Below, one piece after another: positions 13,704 through 51,486 of a stretch of 64,000 nucleotides of DNA (within the stretch, counting starts at the first letter, position 1; every line of letters begins with the position of its first letter). The stretch is from Nocardia sp. NBC_01730. GTDB lineage: Bacteria > Actinomycetota > Actinomycetes > Mycobacteriales > Mycobacteriaceae. The position numbers and the translations under genes were made by a program. The notes beneath the pieces are model-generated. The model ran no database searches. It saw nothing but the letters and a program-made list of their open reading frames with translations, and was not told the DNA's origin. The stretch is taken from assembly GCF_035920445.1 (NCBI RefSeq), contig NZ_CP109162.1, positions 1,612,001-1,676,000 on the forward strand, given 5' to 3'.

Positions 13704-14126
13704 ATGAGTTCACCGAATCGGTTCGACGAAGTCCAAAACGTCGCAGATATCGCTCCAGTGTTCCACAAGCCGCTGGACTTGCCGTACGAGATCTCGAACG
13801 AATTGTTTGCCGCTCTCCGCCACGTCCTGCACGACGTCGGCGGACAACCCGATCTACCGATCGAGTACCAGGAAAAGGACGAAGAACCCTGGGAGATGAA
13901 CACCTACATCACGTGCGAATGCCTCGGCTGGCGCGGCGTGTGGAATTCCGAGGAACGCCGACGAGCCGAGAACGACCTCGGCGCGACGCTGTACTTCGGC
14001 CTGCCCTACTACGCGCGCTGGGCGACTGTCGCCGCGAAGGTGCTGGTCAACAAGGGTCTGATCACCCCGGACGAACTGTCGGCGAAATTGGACGAGGTAC
14101 GCGCGCGAATGGAGGCGCGGCCATGA
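13704..14126 (+). CDS. Nitrile hydratase/thiocyanate hydrolase family, subunit matching the N-terminal half of the NHase beta chain
   Basis: 140 residues from ATG 13704 (GGAG 5 bases upstream). Features: the N-terminal FDEVQNVADIAPVFHKPLDLPYEISNEL, a central WEMNTYITCECLGWRGVWNSEERRRAENDLG and a C-terminal LPYYARWATVAAKVLVNKGLITPDEL, the usual end of NHase beta N-domains and SCNase beta subunits. It has no catalytic metal and forms the heterooligomer interface. It overlaps the next subunit gene by ATGA. In Thiobacillus thiocyanate hydrolase and the toyocamycin nitrile hydratase the beta chain is split in the same way. The substrate cannot be told from sequence. Confidence 0.75.
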   Translation: MSSPNRFDEVQNVADIAPVFHKPLDLPYEISNELFAALRHVLHDVGGQPDLPIEYQEKDEEPWEMNTYITCECLGWRGVWNSEERRRAENDLGATLYFGLPYYARWATVAAKVLVNKGLITPDELSAKLDEVRARMEARP

Positions 14127-14671
14127 CCAGGAAGTACGAGATCGGAGATCGCGTCCGGGTTCGAAACGCGACGTCGATGTTCCACACCCGCACCCAGGCC
14201 TACACCCGCGGGCGCACGGGTGTCGTCGTCGAACACCGGCCCGAGTGGGTGATTCCGGAGGACGAGGCGTGGGGGCGTGACGACGGCCGCTTCGAACCGT
14301 TCTACGTCGTGCGGTTCCGCCAGAAAGACCTGTGGCCCAAATACACCGGTTTCGACGTCGACACCCTGGAGACGGAGGTCTCCGAGCGCTGGCTCGAGCC
14401 CGCGGAGGAGGATCCGAGTGAGTCAGACCCACGATCACGGGGCGCACACGCCGATCCAGACGGGCGGAGAGATCAGCGAGTTCGAGGTCTTGGAGACGGC
14501 GATTCGCGAACTCGCCATCGAAAAGGGCCTTTTCTCGCAGGAAGACCACCGACGGTTCGCCGAATGGGCCGAGTCGGTCGGTCCGCACGGCGGATCGAAA
14601 CTGGTCGCGAAGGCGTGGATGGATCTCGATTTCAAGGCGCGTCTGCTCGCCGACGGGACCGAAACGTGTAA
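14123..14671 (+). CDS. Nitrile hydratase/thiocyanate hydrolase family, SH3-like subunit matching the C-terminal half of the NHase beta chain
   Basis: Residues 1 to about 98 (MTRKYEIGDRVRVRNA, HTRTQAYTRGRTGVV, FYVVRFRQKDLWP, VSERWLEPAEED) are a complete SH3-like NHase beta C-domain. The frame does not stop there: it stays open for 84 more Arg-rich residues to 14671, over the alpha-subunit gene. That tail looks like shadow coding. One extra base near 14413-14416 would give ...EEDPE and a TGA overlapping the alpha GTG start (GTGA), the overlap style used elsewhere in this operon. So the true end is probably about 14421, or the genes really overlap by 254 bases. Confidence 0.7.
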   Translation: MTRKYEIGDRVRVRNATSMFHTRTQAYTRGRTGVVVEHRPEWVIPEDEAWGRDDGRFEPFYVVRFRQKDLWPKYTGFDVDTLETEVSERWLEPAEEDPSESDPRSRGAHADPDGRRDQRVRGLGDGDSRTRHRKGPFLAGRPPTVRRMGRVGRSARRIETGREGVDGSRFQGASARRRDRNV

Positions 14672-15128
14672 GGAGGTCGGCATCGACTGGCGTGACCCGA
14701 CAGGCTCCGGAACGCCGAGCGACTACACCTACTTCTACGTGTTGGAAAATACGCCCAAGGTGCACAACGTCATCGTGTGCACGTTGTGTTCGTGTTATCC
14801 CCGGCCGGTTCTCGGTATGTCTCCGGACTGGTACCGCACCCCCAACTACCGTCGGCGCCTCGTGCGTTGGCCTCGTGAGGTGCTCGCCGAATTCGGCCTG
14901 CACTTTCCGCCTGACGTCGAGATTCGGGTGCACGACTCGAACCAGAAGTCCCGGTTCATGGTGATGCCGATGCGCCCCGCGGGCACCGAAGGCTGGACCG
15001 AGGAACAACTGGCGGCCATCGTCACCCGGGACACGATGATCGGCGTGGCACTGCCGCAGGTCGACTGGACTTCGCAGGCGCCGCCGGGCCAGGTCGAGCC
15101 CGCCACGGGGAGGGGTGGGCAGCGGTGA
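14418..15128 (+). CDS. Cobalt-type nitrile hydratase alpha / thiocyanate hydrolase gamma subunit (catalytic)
   Basis: 236 residues from GTG 14418 (GGAGGAG 6 bases upstream). The metal-binding claw is VCTLCSCYPRPVLGM: Cys121, Cys124, Ser125 and Cys126, with Thr after the first Cys as in cobalt (not iron, CSLCSC) enzymes. In this family Cys124 and Cys126 become sulfinic/sulfenic acids. Other family marks are LVAKAWMDLDFKARLLADG, WYRTPNYRRRLVRWPREVLAEFG and MVMPMRPAGTEGWTEEQLAAIVTRDTMIG. It hydrates nitriles to amides or hydrolyses thiocyanate. The three-subunit layout beta-N, beta-C, alpha plus an activator resembles the SCNase operon. Substrate uncertain. Confidence 0.88.
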   Translation: MSQTHDHGAHTPIQTGGEISEFEVLETAIRELAIEKGLFSQEDHRRFAEWAESVGPHGGSKLVAKAWMDLDFKARLLADGTETCKEVGIDWRDPTGSGTPSDYTYFYVLENTPKVHNVIVCTLCSCYPRPVLGMSPDWYRTPNYRRRLVRWPREVLAEFGLHFPPDVEIRVHDSNQKSRFMVMPMRPAGTEGWTEEQLAAIVTRDTMIGVALPQVDWTSQAPPGQVEPATGRGGQR

Positions 15129-18135: not shown

Positions 18136-18897
18136 TCATCGGCGCGACAATCGGCTGAATATCACGCTCGCGCACGAGAAGCCGACAATCGTGAGCCCGA
18201 AGCACCAGGAGAGGGCGAGAGCGGCGTTGTTTCCGATGCCGGTGGAATTGAGCAATCCGCGTACCGTTTCCACGACGGGCGTTGCCGGTTGATATTCGGC
18301 GAAACCGCGCAGCCACGCCGGCATGGTGGCGGTCTGCACAAATGCGCTGCTGATGTACGGGATGAACATGATCGCGTAGGTGAGTCCCCCGGCCGCCTCC
18401 GGGTTCTTGGCGAGCAATCCCAGCGCGACCGCGATCCAGGAGATCGCCACGACGAACAGCGCGATCACCGCCGATGCCGACAGCCAGGCAGCCGGGTCGG
18501 CATGGGGTCGGTACCCCAGAACGAGGGCCGCGGCGACCGCGATGCCGATGGCCGCCAAATTGCGGACGACACCTTCGGCGACGTGCCCGGCCAGGACAGC
18601 CTGCCTGAACATCGGAAGTGTACGGAACCGGTCGATACTGCCCTTCGTCATATCCGTCGACACGCTGGTGGCCGTGATCGATGAGCCGAATCCCGTGCAC
18701 AGCAGCATTATTCCGGGCACCACGTAGTCCAGGTAGGGCCCTCCCACGTCGATTGCCCCGCCGAAGACGTAGGTGAACAGCATCATGACCAGGACCGGCA
18801 TCAGCAGTGAAATGGTCAGTGTGTCCCGGCTGCGCAGAGTATGTCGGGCACAGCGTTGGAACATGATGACCGTGTCCGTGAAAACGTGCGACGTCAC
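18136..18897 (-). CDS. ABC-2 type transporter permease (DrrB-like)
   Basis: 253 residues with six predicted membrane helices. It has the ABC-2 signature late in the chain (AIMFIPYISSAFVQ...MPAWLRGFAEYQPATPVVETVRGLL) and the DrrB-like N-terminus (RCARHTLRSRDTLTISLLMPVLVMMLFTYVFGGAI). Drug exporters of this kind need a DrrA ATPase; none lies beside it, so it must borrow one encoded elsewhere or be an orphan. Its start overlaps the stop of the GT1 glycosyltransferase by 4 bases, so it may export that enzyme's glycosylated product. Confidence 0.85.
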   Translation of the reverse strand: MTSHVFTDTVIMFQRCARHTLRSRDTLTISLLMPVLVMMLFTYVFGGAIDVGGPYLDYVVPGIMLLCTGFGSSITATSVSTDMTKGSIDRFRTLPMFRQAVLAGHVAEGVVRNLAAIGIAVAAALVLGYRPHADPAAWLSASAVIALFVVAISWIAVALGLLAKNPEAAGGLTYAIMFIPYISSAFVQTATMPAWLRGFAEYQPATPVVETVRGLLNSTGIGNNAALALSWCFGLTIVGFSCASVIFSRLSRR

Positions 18898-20171
18898 CGG
18901 GCGGTGGCCTCGACAATGTCGGCGGCGCGGGCAGCGGAGTCCTCGGTGCTCAGTGTCTTCGTGAATGCCGCTGCGCGGTCCCTACATTCCCGCGTGAGTA
19001 TCGAGGCCACGCCTTGCTCGAGTCGAGCCGCCGTGAGCTGCGTGAACTTCATGTGTGCACCCACGCCGAGGCGCTCGACCTGCCCGCCCCACATGGGCTG
19101 CTCGAACGACACCGAGCAGACCAGCGTCGGCAATCCGGCGCGCAGGCTCTCGAACAATGTTCCGATCCCGCCATGATGGACAGCGGCGGCGCACCGCGGA
19201 AAGACGATGTCGTACGCGAAAGCGCCGACTACCTTCACGTGCGCGCCGACTTTCGCGGCAGCGATGTCCAAATCGCTCCAGCCCGCGCTCACCAGCGCAC
19301 GTACACCCAACCGCGCGGATACCTCGGACACTATCGCCAGCACGGCGGCCGCGTCCCGGATCGGCATGCTGCCGAAGCCGAAGAACACTGGTGGCTCCCC
19401 CTCGCTTGCCCAGGACAGAATGCCGGCATGGTCGCCTGCGAGGTCGCCGACAGCTTCGCGGGCAGCATGATCGAGTGTCAGGAAGCCGGTGAAAGGCCGG
19501 CGCTCGTCCCACTGCTGAGGCAGCCCCGGAACGAGCGCGGGGTCGTAGATCTGCACTTCCGGGACGTTCCGGCGGGCCAGCACCGCGGCTGTGCTCGCCC
19601 ACGACTTCGGCAGCCCTAGCATCGCCCGCAGGTCGTTGAGGTAGCGCATGAACACGACACGGCGCAGGTTCTCGGCAAGTACCCAGGTCGCTCGATTGAC
19701 CCGCGCGGGTGGATTCCAGTGCGGCGGAAGGGCGCCGGGGAAGGGATAGGCCCCGTTGTTCCGGCAGGGGTAATAGTGCAAGCTGACCAGAGGAACGTCC
19801 ATCGCTTCAGCAACCGAACTCGCCCGGTCTTCGGTGACGGTGCTGGCGACGATCAGGTCGGCGTTCGCGCACACCTCGATGACTTCGCGGTTCATCTGGC
19901 CCGCGTAGCCGGCCATCTGCCGTGCGACCAGCTGCATCAGGCGGAATGTGTTTCCCGAGGCCAGCGCCTTCTGCCCGGGCTCCGAACTGTAGAGCTGCTG
20001 TATGTCGGGACCGCACGCGCGGGCGGCAAGCCCCGTGCCTGCGACGAAGCCGATCAGGTTGGGCGGTGCGCCGAGCAGCACGTCGTGACCACGCCGCTGC
20101 AGCTCGAGCCCCAGCGCCACGATCGGCTGTACGTCACCACGGGTTCCGGTGAGCGGAATCGCTATTCTCAC
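18894..20171 (-). CDS. GT1-family glycosyltransferase (macrolide/glycopeptide/sterol glycosyltransferase-like)
   Basis: 425 residues. The N-terminus MRIAIPLTGTRGDVQPIVALGLELQRRGHDV is the GTRGDVQP motif of UDP-sugar transferases acting on lipids, sterols and antibiotics. The C-terminal donor site includes CAAAVHHGGIGTLFESLRAGLPTLV and a following FEQPMWGG. It attaches a sugar to a hydrophobic acceptor. The permease overlaps its end; the GT4-P450 fusion starts divergently 120 bases away. Location and type suggest tailoring or self-resistance for a small molecule. Confidence 0.88.
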   Translation of the reverse strand: MRIAIPLTGTRGDVQPIVALGLELQRRGHDVLLGAPPNLIGFVAGTGLAARACGPDIQQLYSSEPGQKALASGNTFRLMQLVARQMAGYAGQMNREVIEVCANADLIVASTVTEDRASSVAEAMDVPLVSLHYYPCRNNGAYPFPGALPPHWNPPARVNRATWVLAENLRRVVFMRYLNDLRAMLGLPKSWASTAAVLARRNVPEVQIYDPALVPGLPQQWDERRPFTGFLTLDHAAREAVGDLAGDHAGILSWASEGEPPVFFGFGSMPIRDAAAVLAIVSEVSARLGVRALVSAGWSDLDIAAAKVGAHVKVVGAFAYDIVFPRCAAAVHHGGIGTLFESLRAGLPTLVCSVSFEQPMWGGQVERLGVGAHMKFTQLTAARLEQGVASILTRECRDRAAAFTKTLSTEDSAARAADIVEATAR

Positions 20172-20291
20172 GGCGCTTCTTTCGGTGTTGTCGTAGTACC
20201 TGTCGACACTGTGCCCCTACCGGCGCTCGGCGTGCAGACGACAGCATTGTGGGCTCTTCAGCGCGGTCGGACGTCGGTACAGTGAACAATT

Positions 20292-22862
20292 GTGCACATA
20301 GCGATGTTCATGGACTACCACCCGGCCACGCTCGGCGGAGTCCAGACCGCAGTCGGCTCGCTGTGTCGCGGGCTCGAGCGCGCGGGTCACCGCGTCACGC
20401 TCTTCGTGGCACCGCTACCGGGTGCGGACACCGACCCGATCCCGAACGTCGTCGAACTCCACGCCGTCGCCGCGCTCGCTGTCAACGGTTTCGCAATGGT
20501 GCTGCCTACCAAGCGCAATGACAGGCTGATCGACGCGGAATTCGCCGCACGCGGCCCGATCGACGTCGTACACACGCACACGACCTACGGCGTCGCTATC
20601 GCTGGTATGAAAGCAGCACGGCGGCATCGGCTTCCGCTGGTGCATACCGCGCAGAGCCGCGACGACGCGTTCATCGAACACACCTCGTCCGCTCCATATC
20701 CGGCAGCACTGGCGATGCGCGCACTGCACGGCCGGTTCGTCCCGCACTGCGATCACATGCCGCAGGTGCCGGAAAGCCGTGCGGCGCGCCATGCCTGGTG
20801 GACGATAGTCGGTCAGGCCCGAGCCGCTGACCAGGTGATCGCACCGACGCGCCATTTCGCCCAACTGATGGTCGCACACGGGCTGACGCGACCGATTCAG
20901 GTCGTGTCCAACGGCGTCGACGATGAAGTACTCCAAAGCTGCGGTAGCAGTGCCATTTCCGGACCGCCGGCCGACGGACCGCTGCGGCTTGTCTGGAGTG
21001 GAAGGCTTTCCAACGAGAAGCGTCTGCTCGAATCGATCGACGCAGTGCGGCGCACCGACAGCTGCACCCTCGACATCTATGGCGACGGCGATTTGCGAGA
21101 TGATGCTGCCGCCGTGATTGCCGAACATCATCTCAACGATCGAATCCGGTTGCACGGTAGGGTTACCCAGGCAGAGTGTATCTACGCCATGTCCCGATGC
21201 GACGCTCTGCTGTTTCCTTCCTACGGATTCGACACGCAAGGCATGGTCCTGCTCGAGGCGGTGGCGGTGGGGCTTCCGATTGTCTATTGCGATCCCGAAC
21301 TCGACGAGTCCGTGCCCACCGGTGGCGGCATTCGCACCGCGGATCCGTCGGTCGATCGTATCGCCGAGACGATCTCCGAGCTCGCCGACAACCCTCCGGC
21401 ACTCGCCGACATGCGCGAGGTACTCGGCAGGCACTGCGACTCTGTTCTTCAGTCACGTCACACGGGGGCAGTCGTCGAAATCTACCGGCAGGCAGGTGAG
21501 GAATCGGCGCACAGCCCGAAATCGGAAATGCCGCACACCCTTTCGCAGATTCCCACGGCGCCGGGCAGGCTGCCGCTCGTGGGGCACAGCCTGCGGGCAC
21601 TGCGCGGCGCCCCGACATTCATGACGTCGCTGTCCGAGCTCGGTCCGATAGTGCGGATATTTTTCGGGCAGAAGATGGGATACGTCCTCACCACCCCGGA
21701 GCTGGTTCGCGAGGTCGGTCTAGGCGACGCTGAATTCAATCGTGAAGACCTGCGGGAGGCGATCAAGGATGTTGCAGGCGGCTCGGTCAACGTCTTACGC
21801 GGCGAGGAGCACAAGCTGCGTCGCAGGATGATCGCGCCCGCTCTGCGCCAGAGCCGACTCGCCGAGTACACGAAGTCGGCGGCCGATATCGCCGACACGT
21901 GGTCGGCGGGACTTCCATCGGGCAGACGCGTGGATCTGATGGACGAGGCCCACGGCCTGGTGCTCGACACTGTTTCGTCGACGCTGTTCACCGCCGACTT
22001 CAGCGCCGGCGCACGACGCGAGATCCGGGACAACGTGCCTTGGCTGCTCAGCCAGGTGATTCTGCGGACCGCGTTACCGCCGCAACTGCGCCGTCTCCGT
22101 GTCATCGCCAACTGGCGGTGGCGCAGGAAGGCGCGGCACCTGCGTGCCGCTATCGGCGATGTAGTGTCCGAATATCGCCGTTGCGAAGAGGATTTCAATG
22201 ACGTGGTGTCCGCGCTGATCCGGCATACGGATGGCGAGACCGGAGCGACGTTGTCCGACGAGCACATCATCGACGAAGCGATCCTGATGCTCGCCGGCGG
22301 TGTCGGGTCCACGGCGTCGCTGACAGGCTGGCTGTGGCACGAGGTGATGCGCCGCCCCCAGGTTGCCGAGCAGCTGTACGACGAACTCGATGCTGTCGTG
22401 GGATCGGGCCCTGTTCGCGCCGAGCATCTCGGCGCGCTCCCCTACCTGAAACAGGTTGTGGCCGAGACACTTCGCTTCTGGGGACCTTGGATCAGCGCAG
22501 GTACCGCCGAAGGCGACATCACCATCGGCGGGCTCGATATTCCGGATGGCACAGCAATCATGTTCAGCCCCTATATGGTCCAGCACGACAAACGCTATTT
22601 CGCCAATCCGGAAGCGTTCGACCCGGCGCGCTGGTCCCCGGAACGCGCCGGTGCGAACGATAAGAAAGCCAGCCTGTCGTTCGGTATCGGCCGTCGCCGC
22701 TGCCTGGGTGATCACTTCGCGATGCTCGAGATCGCGCTGGCGTCGGCAGCGCTGCTGGCACGCTGGCGGCCGACGCCCCACCCGGATTACGTGGTGCGGG
22801 CGTCGAATCGGGACTTCGTCCTGTCGCCCTCGGCCCTGCCGGTCACCCTGCACCCGCGATAG
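20292..22862 (+). CDS. Fusion protein: GT4 glycosyltransferase joined to cytochrome P450
   Basis: 856 residues from GTG 20292 without interruption. Residues 1 to about 395 are a GT-B glycosyltransferase (GGVQTAVGSLCRGLERAGHRVTLF; VVHTHTTYG; LRLVWSGRLSNEKRLLESI; the donor-site FDTQGMVLLEAVAVGLPIVY). After a short linker (EESAHSPKSEM), about 410-856 are a complete P450: proline-rich start PTAPGRLPLVGHS, I-helix AGGVGSTASLTGW, ExxR at ETLR (Glu725), a PERW-like FDPARWSPERAG, and the haem loop FGIGRRRCLGDHFA with Cys804. The I-helix Asp/Glu-Thr pair is altered (GVGST). It probably oxidises and glycosylates the same substrate or intermediates of one pathway. I know no characterised enzyme of this architecture. 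Confidence 0.85.
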   Translation: MHIAMFMDYHPATLGGVQTAVGSLCRGLERAGHRVTLFVAPLPGADTDPIPNVVELHAVAALAVNGFAMVLPTKRNDRLIDAEFAARGPIDVVHTHTTYGVAIAGMKAARRHRLPLVHTAQSRDDAFIEHTSSAPYPAALAMRALHGRFVPHCDHMPQVPESRAARHAWWTIVGQARAADQVIAPTRHFAQLMVAHGLTRPIQVVSNGVDDEVLQSCGSSAISGPPADGPLRLVWSGRLSNEKRLLESIDAVRRTDSCTLDIYGDGDLRDDAAAVIAEHHLNDRIRLHGRVTQAECIYAMSRCDALLFPSYGFDTQGMVLLEAVAVGLPIVYCDPELDESVPTGGGIRTADPSVDRIAETISELADNPPALADMREVLGRHCDSVLQSRHTGAVVEIYRQAGEESAHSPKSEMPHTLSQIPTAPGRLPLVGHSLRALRGAPTFMTSLSELGPIVRIFFGQKMGYVLTTPELVREVGLGDAEFNREDLREAIKDVAGGSVNVLRGEEHKLRRRMIAPALRQSRLAEYTKSAADIADTWSAGLPSGRRVDLMDEAHGLVLDTVSSTLFTADFSAGARREIRDNVPWLLSQVILRTALPPQLRRLRVIANWRWRRKARHLRAAIGDVVSEYRRCEEDFNDVVSALIRHTDGETGATLSDEHIIDEAILMLAGGVGSTASLTGWLWHEVMRRPQVAEQLYDELDAVVGSGPVRAEHLGALPYLKQVVAETLRFWGPWISAGTAEGDITIGGLDIPDGTAIMFSPYMVQHDKRYFANPEAFDPARWSPERAGANDKKASLSFGIGRRRCLGDHFAMLEIALASAALLARWRPTPHPDYVVRASNRDFVLSPSALPVTLHPR

Positions 22863-23439: not shown

Positions 23440-24585
23440 TCAGCCTTCGCGTTGCGCCGTACGCAGGTCGGACGGCGCGGTCGGAGGTTCGGCGTCTGCG
23501 ATCGCCACGGTGGCCTCGGCGGCATGTTCGGCATCCTCGACAGTGCTTCGTCCGAGGCCGCAGGCCGTCGCCACGCCGTAGGCGGTTCGATCGGCTGCCT
23601 GTTCGAACAGCGCCAGGCTCCGGAGGCTGCCTTCGGTGTCGGTCGGTGACACAACACCGGCGATCAATTGCCAGTCCTCGTTCAGGCGGCGCAGCGGCCG
23701 GTAGAACGCTGGGTCGAGCGGCGCGGGGTGGGCGCCATAGGCGCAGGGAATGTGCGCGGGCGGCAGCGGCACACCGTGTTTGCGCAGTCTTCGCGCGGTG
23801 GCGTTCAACAGGTTCACGGCCGGCGCGATGGTCCGCGGGGCGAGCAGTTCTTTGTGCTGGTAGTCGCCGTAACAGAGATGGAGGACGGTCTGCGCGCCGA
23901 TGTCGTGTGCCCGCTCGAGGAATCCCGCCAACTGCCTCGCCACCAGACGCCCGACCGGCAGCTGTACGCCCAGTTGCGCTGCCTTGACCAGTGCCAGCTG
24001 AGCGATCGGCGACTCCACCTGCCATGTGAGCGTGTCGCCGTACTTCGCGGTCAATTCGGCCATTTCGGCGAGCACGGCCTCGACGAACACCGGCAGGTTG
24101 CGCAGCGCGGGCGCGACCGCTCCGGCGTGCCGCAGCGCGCGTCCGAGAGGAAGACCGTCGGTGACCGCTGCGCCCGCGAACACGAACAACGCCATGTCCA
24201 GCGGGTTCGGCTGACTGATCTGCAATCTCGTACCGGCGAGCTCGGGATGCCGCTTCTGCACCTCACGGAACGCGGTGACGGCTTCGGTGATCCGACCGCC
24301 GCGGTCCATCGATACATGGCGGGGCTCGAGTGTGCGCCCACGGCGGATGCCGTAGCCGCGCATGTCGGAGTAATCAGCGAAATCACCGCCGCGCACCACC
24401 TCGAACACGTCGAGGTGTTTCTCCCGATCTCGGAGATACTGCACGACCCAGTTCGGGTCGAGATCACAGGGGACCCCGGTCAGCTGGTGTCCGCTACTGC
24501 GCTGGACGAACCATTCCAGTACGTCACTGTCACTCGTCATCAACTGCGGGGGCAAACTGCCCACAAAGTGTACGAATCTGGTCAT
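23440..24585 (-). CDS. UROD/MetE-like fold protein of unknown function
   Basis: 381 residues starting MTRFVHFVGSLPPQLMTSD. The layout is that of a cobalamin-independent-methionine-synthase-like TIM barrel: a GSLPP opening, ISQPNPLDMALFVF, DTLTWQVESPIAQLAL, and a TVLHLCYGDYQHKEL block in place of the MetE HxCxG zinc site (His-Leu-Cys-Tyr-Gly), with IPCAYGAHPAPLD later. The Cys-Gly pair suggests possible zinc-dependent methyl or alkyl chemistry, but the usual MetE glutamates cannot be confirmed by eye. It sits opposite the P450/peptide genes and back-to-back with a methyltransferase relic, so it may belong to the same metabolite locus. Confidence 0.6.
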   Translation of the reverse strand: MTRFVHFVGSLPPQLMTSDSDVLEWFVQRSSGHQLTGVPCDLDPNWVVQYLRDREKHLDVFEVVRGGDFADYSDMRGYGIRRGRTLEPRHVSMDRGGRITEAVTAFREVQKRHPELAGTRLQISQPNPLDMALFVFAGAAVTDGLPLGRALRHAGAVAPALRNLPVFVEAVLAEMAELTAKYGDTLTWQVESPIAQLALVKAAQLGVQLPVGRLVARQLAGFLERAHDIGAQTVLHLCYGDYQHKELLAPRTIAPAVNLLNATARRLRKHGVPLPPAHIPCAYGAHPAPLDPAFYRPLRRLNEDWQLIAGVVSPTDTEGSLRSLALFEQAADRTAYGVATACGLGRSTVEDAEHAAEATVAIADAEPPTAPSDLRTAQREG

Positions 24586-48896: not shown

Positions 48897-49802
48897 TCAC
48901 GCCGAGAGTGGCGTGAAGTCGCGGCTGCCGATGTATCCGGGTCGCCGCGCCGGCGCGGCGAACGGCTCCACAAGGGTGTTCTCCACACTGTTGAACACCA
49001 GGAAGATGTTCGAGCGCGGAAAGGGCGTGATGTTGTTCGACGACCCATGCATGAGATTGGAGTCGAACAGCAGCGCCGACCCGGCCCTGCCGGTGAACTG
49101 GCTGATTCCGTACTGCTTCGCGAGCGAGGCGATGTCCTCGGCCGTCGGAACACCGATCTCCTGCTCCTGCAACGACTCCCGATAGTGCTCGGCCGGGGTG
49201 CTGCCCAGGCAGGGCACGAAGGTTCGGTGTGAGCCGGGCATCACCATCAGGCTGCCGTTGATCGGATAGTTGTCGGTCAGCGCGATCGACAGGCTCACCG
49301 CGCGCGGCGCGGGCATTCCGTCCTCGGCGTGCCAGGTCTCGAAATCCGAGTGCCAGTAGAAACCCGTGCCGCGGAAGCCGGGCATGTAGTTGACCCGGCT
49401 CTGGTGCACATACACCTCCGACCCCAGTACCTTCCTGGCCAGCCCGACGACGCGCTCCTCCCGCGCCAGCTCGGCGACCGCCGAGCTGAGCTTGTGCACC
49501 TCGAAGATCGAGCGCACCCGGTTCGACGACTTCTCCACGATCAGCCGGGCGTCGTCGCGCAGTGTGGGATCGCCAGCGAGCTGGTGGATCTCGGCGCTGA
49601 ACTCCGCCACCTCGGCGGGAGTCAGCAGCGCGTCGAGGATCGCGAAGCCGTCGGCGTCGAACGCGGCCAGCTCCTTGCTGTCGACCGTGCCCCAGACCGT
49701 GGGGTCGGCGCGCTCCAGATGCGGGGCGGGCACGCCGAGCCGGGTGGGGTAGCGATCAGACTGCGCGGTCTCGAGTCGAGCATCGGTGTGCTGCAAAGCC
49801 AT
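48897..49802 (-). CDS. ectD: Ectoine hydroxylase EctD
   Basis: 301 residues from ATG 49802, 12 bases after GGAGG; the ATG at 49814 abuts the ribosome site and overlaps the ectC stop. An Fe(II)/2-oxoglutarate dioxygenase that turns ectoine into 5-hydroxyectoine. The diagnostic FYWHSDFETWHAEDGMP motif supplies the His and Asp iron ligands, and the distal His is in DSNLMHGSSNNITPFPRSN. RVNYMPGFRGTGF and DNYPINGSLMVMPGSH match EctD. Length equals the family norm. Last gene of the operon, followed by a strong terminator. Confidence 0.95.
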   Translation of the reverse strand: MALQHTDARLETAQSDRYPTRLGVPAPHLERADPTVWGTVDSKELAAFDADGFAILDALLTPAEVAEFSAEIHQLAGDPTLRDDARLIVEKSSNRVRSIFEVHKLSSAVAELAREERVVGLARKVLGSEVYVHQSRVNYMPGFRGTGFYWHSDFETWHAEDGMPAPRAVSLSIALTDNYPINGSLMVMPGSHRTFVPCLGSTPAEHYRESLQEQEIGVPTAEDIASLAKQYGISQFTGRAGSALLFDSNLMHGSSNNITPFPRSNIFLVFNSVENTLVEPFAAPARRPGYIGSRDFTPLSA

Positions 49803-49810
49803 TACCGTTC

Positions 49811-50212
49811 TCATCCTCCGATCGTTGTCGCGGCGACCAACGGGTAGACGCCGTCGCTGTCGTGAACCTCCTGCCCCGTAACCGGCGGGTTGAACACGCA
49901 CATCATCCGCATGGTGCTGCGCACCTCGAGGCGGTGGCGTTCGTGTCCGTCGAGCAGGTACATCGAGCCCGGCACGAGTTCGTAGGTGGCGCCGTTGTCC
50001 AGGTCGGTCAACGTGCCCTCGCCCTCGATGAGCCACACCGCCTCCACGTGGTGGCGGTAGTGGAACTCGTGCACGGTACCTGCTTCGATGGTGGTCTCGT
50101 GGAAAGAGAAGCCCACCCCGTCGCCGCCGAGGACAATGCGCTTACTGCGCCACCCCTCCCCCGCCACGTCGCGTTCGGTGCCGGTGATCTCCGCGGTAGT
50201 GCGCACGATCAT
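49811..50212 (-). CDS. ectC: L-ectoine synthase EctC
   Basis: 133 residues from ATG 50212, overlapping the ectB stop by ATGA. A cupin that cyclises N-gamma-acetyl-diaminobutyrate to ectoine. MIVRTTAEITGTERDVAGEGWRSKRIVLGGDGVGFSFHETTI is the usual N-terminus; FHYRHHVEAVWLIEGEGTLTDL holds the metal-binding cupin strand and LDGHERHRLEV the second. Length matches family. Confidence 0.95.
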   Translation of the reverse strand: MIVRTTAEITGTERDVAGEGWRSKRIVLGGDGVGFSFHETTIEAGTVHEFHYRHHVEAVWLIEGEGTLTDLDNGATYELVPGSMYLLDGHERHRLEVRSTMRMMCVFNPPVTGQEVHDSDGVYPLVAATTIGG

Positions 50213-51486
50213 CCGACCGCCCCCACACCACCACACACGGCGTCGACGGCGCCGGTGAGGATGTGCAGGCCCTGGTCGAGCTCCTGCTCGGTGATGGTCA
50301 ATGGCGGCAAGAGCTTCACCACTTCGTCGGTGGAACCGGAGGTCTCCACCAGTAGACCGCGCTCGAACGCGATTTGGCAAACCTTACTCGCCTGTGACGG
50401 CTCATCGAACACGACGCCTTGCACGAGGCCGCGCCCTCGGGTCGAGACGCCGGGAAAGTGACCGGCCAGCTCGCTCAGCCTGCGTTCGACGCGCTCGCCT
50501 TTGACCTGCGTCGCGTCCTGGAGGGCGCCATCGGACCAGAAGTGCCGCAGCGCGGTCGTCGCGGTGACGAACGCGGGGTTGTTGCCGCGAAAGGTGCCGT
50601 TGTGCTCACCGGGCGCCCACTGATCGAGCTCCGGCTTGAGCAGCACCAGCGCCATCGGCAGACCGTAGCCGCCGATCGACTTCGAAAGCGTGACGATGTC
50701 GGGGGTGATCCCCGCGACCTCGAAGGAGAAGAACGGGCCGGTCCGGCCGCAGCCCATCTGCACGTCGTCGACGATCAGCAGGATCTCACGTTCCGCACAG
50801 AGCCCGGCGAGGTGGCGCAGCCACTCGGCGCGCGCGACATTGACGCCACCCTCACCCTGCACCGTCTCCACGATCACTGCGGCGGGGCGGTCGACGCCCG
50901 ACGAGCTGTCGTCGAGCACCTTCTCCATCCACTGGAAGTCGGCGGTGGTGCCATCGAAGTAGCCGTCGTAGGGCATGTGCGTCGTGTGCACCAGCGGTAC
51001 GCCGGCACCCGCCCGCTTGGCCGCATTGCCGGTGACCGACAACGCGCCCAGCGTCATCCCATGGAAGGCGTTGGTGAAGCTGACGATCGTCTCGCGGCCG
51101 GTGATCTTGCGAGCAAGCTTGAGCGCAGCCTCGACGGCGTTGGCGCCGGTCGGGCCGGGGAACTGGACCTTGTAGTCCAGGCCGCGCGGCGTGAAGAGGG
51201 TGTCGCGCAGTGTCTCCAGCAGTTCCCGTTTGGCCGCCGTCGACATGTCCAGGCCGTGCGTGATGCCGTCACTGGCGATGTAGTCCAGCAGCGAGTGCTT
51301 GAGCACCTCGTTGTTGTGGCCGTAGTTCAGTGCACCGGCGCCTGCGAAGAAGTCGAGGTAGTCCCTGCCTTCCTCGTCACGTAGCCAGCTGCCTTTCGCG
51401 GTGGTGAACACGGTGGGCCAGGCGCGGCAGTAACCGCGCACGTTCGATTCAAGACTCTCGAAAATGGTGGTATCGGCGTTGATCAT
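50209..51486 (-). CDS. ectB: Diaminobutyrate--2-oxoglutarate transaminase EctB
   Basis: 425 residues. A class III PLP aminotransferase making L-2,4-diaminobutyrate from aspartate semialdehyde, with glutamate as amino donor. FESLESNVRGYCRAWPTVF is the EctB start; FPGPTGANAVEAALKLARK is the phosphate/substrate region, VDDVQMGCGRTG the PLP aspartate, and TLSKSIGGYGLPMA the Schiff-base lysine. Overlaps ectA upstream and ectC downstream by 4 bases each, so translation is coupled. Confidence 0.95.
   Translation of the reverse strand: MINADTTIFESLESNVRGYCRAWPTVFTTAKGSWLRDEEGRDYLDFFAGAGALNYGHNNEVLKHSLLDYIASDGITHGLDMSTAAKRELLETLRDTLFTPRGLDYKVQFPGPTGANAVEAALKLARKITGRETIVSFTNAFHGMTLGALSVTGNAAKRAGAGVPLVHTTHMPYDGYFDGTTADFQWMEKVLDDSSSGVDRPAAVIVETVQGEGGVNVARAEWLRHLAGLCAEREILLIVDDVQMGCGRTGPFFSFEVAGITPDIVTLSKSIGGYGLPMALVLLKPELDQWAPGEHNGTFRGNNPAFVTATTALRHFWSDGALQDATQVKGERVERRLSELAGHFPGVSTRGRGLVQGVVFDEPSQASKVCQIAFERGLLVETSGSTDEVVKLLPPLTITEQELDQGLHILTGAVDAVCGGVGAVG

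Follow-up and report, generated by a model that had tools for sequence, protein, structure and literature searches.

In a 64,000-nucleotide stretch of the Nocardia sp. NBC_01730 genome (contig NZ_CP109162.1, positions 1,612,001 to 1,676,000; hereafter, the window), one gene encodes a glycosyltransferase of family GT4 joined to a cytochrome P450 (P450) in a single polypeptide. This GT4-P450 fusion is a conserved family, not an oddity of one genome, and its membership in the pathway of a second gene cluster, marked by AfsA- and UbiA-like proteins, is well supported. We hold with moderate confidence that the fusion is a bifunctional tailoring enzyme of this split biosynthetic pathway, which would oxidize and glycosylate a lipid of the AfsA/UbiA type.

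The original prediction, made from the DNA alone, described an uninterrupted frame of 856 codons with catalytic motifs kept in both halves, and this was borne out (Table 1). The frame opens with GTG, a start backed by aligned relatives that begin with MHIA at the same position, and contains no internal stop. Three Pfam domains were found above their gathering cutoffs: Glyco_transf_4 (residues 15 to 212; 81.7 bits), Glycos_transf_1 (228 to 376; 62.9 bits), and p450 (PF00067; 421 to 846; 204 bits against a cutoff of 22.8). These domains, together with the EX7E-type motif, place the N-terminal half among the retaining GT4 enzymes of GT-B type and the C-terminal half in the P450 superfamily. Glu725 of the ExxR motif, Cys804, and the haem loop FGIGRRRCLGDHFA lie where they had been placed: E725, R728, and C804 are invariant in all 27 aligned fusions, as are F797, G800, R802, and G806 of the loop, of which the remaining residues vary. 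In the GT4 motif, T315, Q316, and E322 are invariant in the same alignment, and residue 314 is Asp or Glu in 27 of 27. AlphaFold predicts two confident domains (mean predicted local distance difference test score, 89.5; mostly about 90 in the GT4 half). The ratio of nonsynonymous to synonymous substitution rates (dN/dS), estimated for five pairs, is about 0.16 to 0.20 in the GT4 half and 0.10 to 0.13 in the P450 half, so that both halves look to be under purifying selection; in every one of the five pairs, dN is higher in the linker than in either half. Judged by sequence, both enzyme halves are apparently competent. No electron-transfer domain is present among the Pfam matches of the 856 residues, and the protein is thus not a self-sufficient, reductase-fused P450.

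A search for the same domain architecture, to which the original prediction had pointed, recovered a glycosyltransferase Pfam domain and PF00067 together in 116 of 119 database matches (taken from 7,998 scored candidates), which disposes of a one-genome curiosity. Most of these 116 proteins align over their whole length, with 49 to 92% identity. Those with a named organism come from Nocardia, one Gordonia metagenome-assembled genome, and two Tsukamurella. Many annotated proteins hence show the fusion, and none explains it: the source names are mostly just “cytochrome P450,” with “glycosyltransferase involved in cell wall biosynthesis” appended in one case (P0003). Across named genomes, a scan turned up 57 loci, 53 fused and four P450-only. 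Among 150 Nocardia genomes, 69 have a match to the P450 half at an E value of 1e-220 or better; in one of the 69 (G013) the gene is broken by contig ends, and in another (G048) the reading frame is interrupted within GT4. A phage origin was considered and rejected, as PHROGs yielded only a weak glycosyltransferase match.

The second cluster, annotated on the Nocardia seriolae and Nocardia carnea copies, comprises in full a fatty acyl-AMP ligase (FAAL), an acyl carrier protein (ACP), a thioester-reductase-like protein, an NDK-like protein, an AfsA/ScbA protein, a nitroreductase-like protein, and a UbiA-like prenyltransferase. The AfsA protein of N. seriolae (L080) passes the cutoff of the curated model NF041195 (215.3 against 200 bits). 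In the genome of the window this set is complete at about 7.780 to 7.789 Mb of the contig, 6.2 Mb from the fusion. Elsewhere the two are often neighbors: UbiA-like and AfsA genes share the locus (10-kb flanks) in 29 of the 53 fused named loci, most of the set adjoins the fusion in one Tsukamurella (L107) and one Gordonia (L108), and a GT1-type glycosyltransferase and an unfused P450 come after the set in two mycobacterial genomes. One FAAL protein of the cluster (L096:16837-20283, minus strand; 1,149 amino acids) is covered by Pfam at residues 31 to 413, with no match in its long C-terminal part; in a mycobacterial homolog, a nucleotidyltransferase-like GS...DID motif was seen by eye.

In Nocardia, the P450 half and UbiA are present in exactly the same 69 of the 150 genomes; in 30 of these, no single contig carries both within 12 kb (7 with both on one contig, 0.28 to 9.2 Mb apart, and 23 with the two on different contigs). 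In a set of 99 genomes that overlaps with the 150, the P450 half and UbiA again coincide exactly, in 31 genomes, and AfsA occurs in 30; AfsA is lacking from G013, whose UbiA gene lies at the end of a contig. On an rpoB tree built by a quick method for 110 of the 150 genomes, 11 of 11 supported independent pairs agree (sign test, P = 0.001); because the two trait lists are identical, this test shows only the number of independent contrasts. As a control, standalone GT4 relatives, counted as present at E 1e-88 so that weaker ones were missed, occur in 8 of the 69 genomes with the fusion and in 31 of the 81 without it (P = 2e-4); they do not track the fusion and are depleted beside it. Among the 11 rpoB pairs, an average of 0.2 pointed the same way and 3.8 the opposite way, which is not significant (median P = 0.125). 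The fusion and these standalone relatives thus tend to exclude each other in Nocardia, as if their pathways were alternatives.

Two further genes accompany the fusion, transcribed away from it. Of the 49 fused named loci for which 2.6 kb or more of upstream sequence was available, 46 have a divergent GT1 and 42 an ABC-2 permease. The fused loci without GT1 belong to Nocardia vulneris and two Nocardia brasiliensis genomes (L089, L092, and L104), and the permease is absent there as well. Each of these three genomes has a second locus (L112, L110, and L106) that is P450-only, with GT1 and permease and without GT4. In the N. brasiliensis-type genomes, the complete set is divided between two paralogous copies, as would be expected of parts that all serve one pathway.

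The sequence data establish the fusion itself, its conservation and motifs, the co-occurrence and synteny, and the existence of unfused relatives. For the substrate, the sugar, the order of steps, export, any benefit of tethering, and the P450 chemistry, we infer the following scheme. The core cluster would build a lipid-like product, probably by AfsA-type condensation with a C3 sugar phosphate. This chemistry, combined with the FAAL, ACP, and thioester-reductase-like proteins, suggests an acyl-derived, C3-containing lipid or butenolide, which the UbiA-like enzyme would prenylate. The C-terminal P450 would then oxidize the core-cluster product, and the N-terminal GT4 would attach a sugar, most simply at the oxygen installed by the P450. 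The divergent GT1 could add another sugar, the ABC-2 permease may take part in export, and the GT4-free mycobacterial version would make a product lacking the GT4-borne sugar. The scheme in its most complete form, with one polypeptide that oxidizes and then glycosylates, through a P450 without the usual acid-Thr relay, and so completes a hitherto undescribed family of prenylated, glycosylated AfsA-type lipids or butenolides in Nocardia, Gordonia, Tsukamurella, and (without GT4) mycobacteria, is doubtful, and we advance it tentatively.

Several observations weigh against a bifunctional tailoring enzyme of the AfsA/UbiA pathway. Co-occurrence indicates a shared pathway or function, not an order of steps. 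The link is looser outside Nocardia: in a wider survey of the order, which covered 397 genomes including Nocardia (UbiA at E 1e-20, P450 at 45% or more), UbiA was matched in 11 genomes, and 6 of these, four Nocardia and two mycobacterial, also have the P450. Of the remaining five, two (loci L159 and L160) hold the core cluster, and the 20 kb taken from each contained no match to P450 or GT1. The UbiA-like protein itself has no Pfam match in its N. seriolae and Tsukamurella copies; the N. seriolae copy matches two NCBIfam prenyltransferase models, far below cutoff, and an Asp-rich motif was seen by eye. The relative placement of the two domains is uncertain, because the predicted template modeling score of the full protein is 0.66 and the predicted arrangement is hence not firm. 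No redox partner is fused to the P450, and no search for a separate one was made. Finally, coupling of P450 and GT4 is not essential, because mycobacteria and derived paralogs have the P450 with no GT4 fused to it. A look for adjacent, separate halves in relatives found the P450 as a gene of its own in two mycobacterial versions of the pathway and no GT4 match alongside it in the 20 kb taken.

The I helix of the P450 half bears on what reaction it catalyzes. GVGST had been proposed to replace the acid-Thr pair of canonical P450 monooxygenases. The replacement stands: aligned to CYP170A1, the canonical acid is Gly672 and the canonical Thr is Ser673, and the acid position is Gly in 117 of 117 fused proteins, followed by Ser in 116 (two short proteins, P0148 and P0158, were left out of the tally). 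The final T is not part of the conserved element: the position following Ser can hold Thr, Met, Gln, or Glu. Unfused orthologs have Gly-Ser in 39 of 40 cases, some of the 40 being derived from fused proteins, whereas 15 of 15 more distant P450s have an acid at this position, followed by Thr in 14. Gly-Ser is thus, in these alignments, a trait of the P450 family and not of the fusion alone, and it seems to be older than the fusion, because unfused Mycobacterium and Rhodococcus orthologs carry it. From the motif we infer unusual oxygen activation. The same residues would suit a P450 half that is not a monooxygenase at all and instead performs other haem chemistry, such as rearrangement, a peroxide shunt, coupling, or dehydration. 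This is possible, if on balance unlikely: ExxR and the Cys are invariant in the 27 aligned fusions, and in some P450s Ser can stand in for Thr, while substrate or water can act as the proton relay.

The halves might also serve the same pathway while acting independently, with GT4 extending the sugar added by GT1 and the fusion merely coexpressing or tethering the two. Standalone GT4 relatives are located directly beside GT1 in at least seven loci (L047, L049, L051, L054, L057, L058, and L177), and the variable linker, the uncertain domain arrangement, and the existence of the P450 unfused elsewhere would all fit. However, the fusion has been retained in three genera, though some lineages show that undoing it is possible, and the standalone GT4s nearest in the tree, which belong to polyketide synthase (PKS) clusters (L045, L046, and L048), have no GT1 neighbor in the displayed loci. 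We regard independent action as unlikely.

That the divergent unit serves inactivation and efflux of a xenobiotic or antibiotic, not biosynthesis, is improbable. The closest NCBIfam model of GT1 is the rifamycin-inactivating glycosyltransferase Rgt (NF000354), and the permease is nearest to DrrB models; both scores are far below cutoff (90 against 800 and 63 against 147 bits, respectively), and biosynthesis is favored by the exact co-occurrence in Nocardia and by how often the unit adjoins the AfsA/UbiA cluster. A sequencing or annotation artifact, with a stop lost between two genes, can be dismissed even though the in-frame Met at residue 411 resembles an old start codon: full-length, stop-free relatives come from many assemblies and three genera, with purifying selection on both sides, which also excludes the missed stop or frameshift for which a check had been advised.

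Unfused P450 orthologs, about 45 to 58% identical, occur in Mycobacterium (G099; crocinum/pallens and others), Rhodococcus, and Antrihabitans. On a P450 tree of 33 of the 117 fused, 22 of the 40 unfused, and 6 of the 15 distant proteins, the fused proteins and the unfused ones nested among them make up one clade (support, 94/84), and the Mycobacterium, Rhodococcus, and Antrihabitans orthologs form a clade beside it. The fused or unfused label requires seven changes on this tree, not all of which may be real: P0157 derives from the frame-broken PLM1 assembly, and the contig that yielded P0155 is 1,385 bp long. Either loss of GT4 or fission may lie behind three unfused Nocardia proteins (P0151, P0153, and P0156). 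For the GT4 half, a tree of 34 fused rows (33 loci plus the window) and 17 standalone proteins, with loci drawn from 91 matches of at least 340 residues, places three standalone GT4s from mycobacterial-genus genomes, on long branches, among the fused ones. An approximately unbiased test of a single origin on this tree gave P = 0.037 with all fused rows and P = 0.054 without Tsukamurella and Gordonia, and a single origin of the fusion is accordingly not settled.

The linker may record how the fusion arose. When MTARLSELPTAPG of unfused P0152 is aligned with MPRTLAEVPTAPG of fused P0090, the spacing of the start Met matches that of the in-linker Met, and Met411 is possibly a relic of the original P450 start; Leu or a gap replaces it in many fused proteins, and inspection by eye revealed no clear ribosome-binding site for an internal start there. 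Conversely, in one N. brasiliensis paralog, VHTAEPTDYPPE was read by eye in the frame immediately ahead of the Met of the P450. This P450-only paralog may have arisen by in-frame loss of GT4, because the VH in that sequence is how GT4 starts.

Other arrangements were encountered among the matches. P0113 (581 amino acids) has only about 130 GT4-like residues ahead of the P450 and would be another lineage with a decayed GT4 half. In Tsukamurella sp. PLM1 (L116), several genes, including the fusion, are in broken pieces, and a base-calling problem of the assembly is suspected. P0110 (L178:9099-11258, G401:C29) is a second GT4-P450 frame, in a different cluster with PKS, thioester-reductase, and hydrolase genes; it stands where the standalone GT4 usually sits, its match is limited to the N-terminal GT4 domain, and it is possibly a recombinant of the two GT4 genes. 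P0119, a 621-amino-acid P450 with Pfam domains that we take to be SnoaL-like, has yet another unusual P450 architecture.

Table 1. Coordinates in the window of the fusion gene, its parts, and its divergent neighbors
Feature	Position	Strand	Basis or remark
ABC-2 / DrrB-like permease	18136..18897	-	overlaps GT1 gene by 4 bp
GT1-type glycosyltransferase (EryCIII/Rgt-like)	18894..20171	-	conserved divergent neighbor
Divergent intergenic region between GT1 and fusion, 120 bp	20172..20291	.	between the two divergent genes
GT4-P450 fusion gene, 856 aa	20292..22862	+	GTG start, no internal stop, relatives
GT4 (GT-B) half, residues about 1-398	20292..21485	+	Pfam, AlphaFold model
GT4 EX7E-type motif D314-TQGMVLL-E322	21231..21257	+	alignment, 27 fusions
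Linker, residues about 399-420	21486..21551	+	variable in length and sequence
In-linker Met411	21522..21524	+	spacing as start Met of an unfused ortholog
P450 half, residues 421-856	21552..22859	+	Pfam
I-helix motif AGGVGSTAS (668-676)	22293..22319	+	Gly672/Ser673 at acid-Thr pair
ExxR (E725-T-L-R728)	22464..22475	+	invariant E725, R728
Haem loop FGIGRRRCLGDHFA with Cys804	22680..22721	+	sequence, alignment

Downstream of the fusion lies an open reading frame of 381 amino acids (23440-24585, minus strand) for which neither Pfam nor NCBIfam gave a match at E 0.001. Farther off, the window contains nitrile hydratase genes (13704-15128, plus strand) whose beta subunit is encoded in two pieces (beta-N, beta-C, alpha), as known from thiocyanate hydrolases, and ectoine-type genes (48897-51486, minus strand) for a PhyH dioxygenase, an ectoine synthase, and a class III aminotransferase.

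Compared with known systems, the GT4-P450 fusion represents a P450 fusion type that is new, within a pathway for which no description was found. The best PDB sequence match of the P450 half is CYP170A1, the albaflavenone synthase (3dbg; E 5e-50), which is alike in its haem loop and ExxR motif but has Glu-Thr in place of Gly-Ser and is not fused to a glycosyltransferase; the nearest solved P450 by fold is CYP184A1. The best NCBIfam models, albaflavenone synthase (NF051859; 238 against 700 bits) and pentalenene oxygenase (NF045812; 281 against 800 bits), are of terpene P450s, and both scores are below cutoff. The unfused orthologs from Mycobacterium, Rhodococcus, and Antrihabitans share the Gly-Ser I helix and differ in having no GT4 domain; in two mycobacterial genomes, this P450 adjoins GT1 and UbiA of the same core cluster. 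On the glycosyltransferase side, the fusion resembles GT4 glycolipid synthases (MGlcDAG synthase, IagA/BgsA, and PimA) in its GT4 domains, and lipid glycosyltransferases are the best NCBIfam matches of this half; however, the scores are weak (53 against 400 bits for the best, a glycolipid synthase, far below cutoff), the first acid of the EX7E motif is often Asp, and a P450 is attached. Compared with PDB by sequence only, the GT4 half gave weak matches to GT4 enzymes such as BshA and PimA. Natural P450 fusions (BM3 with its reductase, CYP51-ferredoxin, and P450-terpene synthase) likewise join a P450 covalently to another protein, but here the partner is a sugar transferase, is N-terminal, and comes with no redox domain. 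Two of the distant matches (P0200 and P0204) pair PF00067 with PF19086, presumably a terpene synthase family.

The partner cluster shares its AfsA-type enzyme with gamma-butyrolactone and butenolide pathways, such as those of A-factor, of GblA in Rhodococcus jostii (excerpts of PMC5735094), and of gladiostatin with its PBS domain (excerpts of PMC7756379); according to the latter excerpts, AfsA-type enzymes condense 3-keto thioesters with dihydroxyacetone phosphate. Beyond these pathways, it has FAAL, ACP, thioester-reductase-like, NDK-like, and UbiA-like proteins, GT1, and the GT4-P450 fusion. The Rhodococcus gbl cluster has been described as comprising gblA, gblR, and gblE, and the excerpted text on it lacks the terms prenyltransferase, glycosyl, and P450 (PMC5735094). 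The claim that no enzyme of this domain order has been characterized held up insofar as neither a glycosyltransferase-P450 fusion nor such a cluster was found described among the open-licence papers that the searches listed, an absence that is weak evidence.

P450 fusions are studied for the coupling of reactions, and a glycosyltransferase-P450 fusion would be a natural model of direct coupling between oxidation and glycosylation, as well as a component for glycoside production. Through its exact co-occurrence with UbiA of the AfsA/FAAL cluster, a gene labeled no more than “cytochrome P450” is connected with a testable pathway in slightly fewer than half of the Nocardia genomes examined (69 of 150). 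This connection also suggests that mycolic-acid bacteria have a class of lipid-like metabolites of which we found no description. Furthermore, the conserved Gly-Ser I helix offers a natural family for studying oxygen activation by P450s without the acid.

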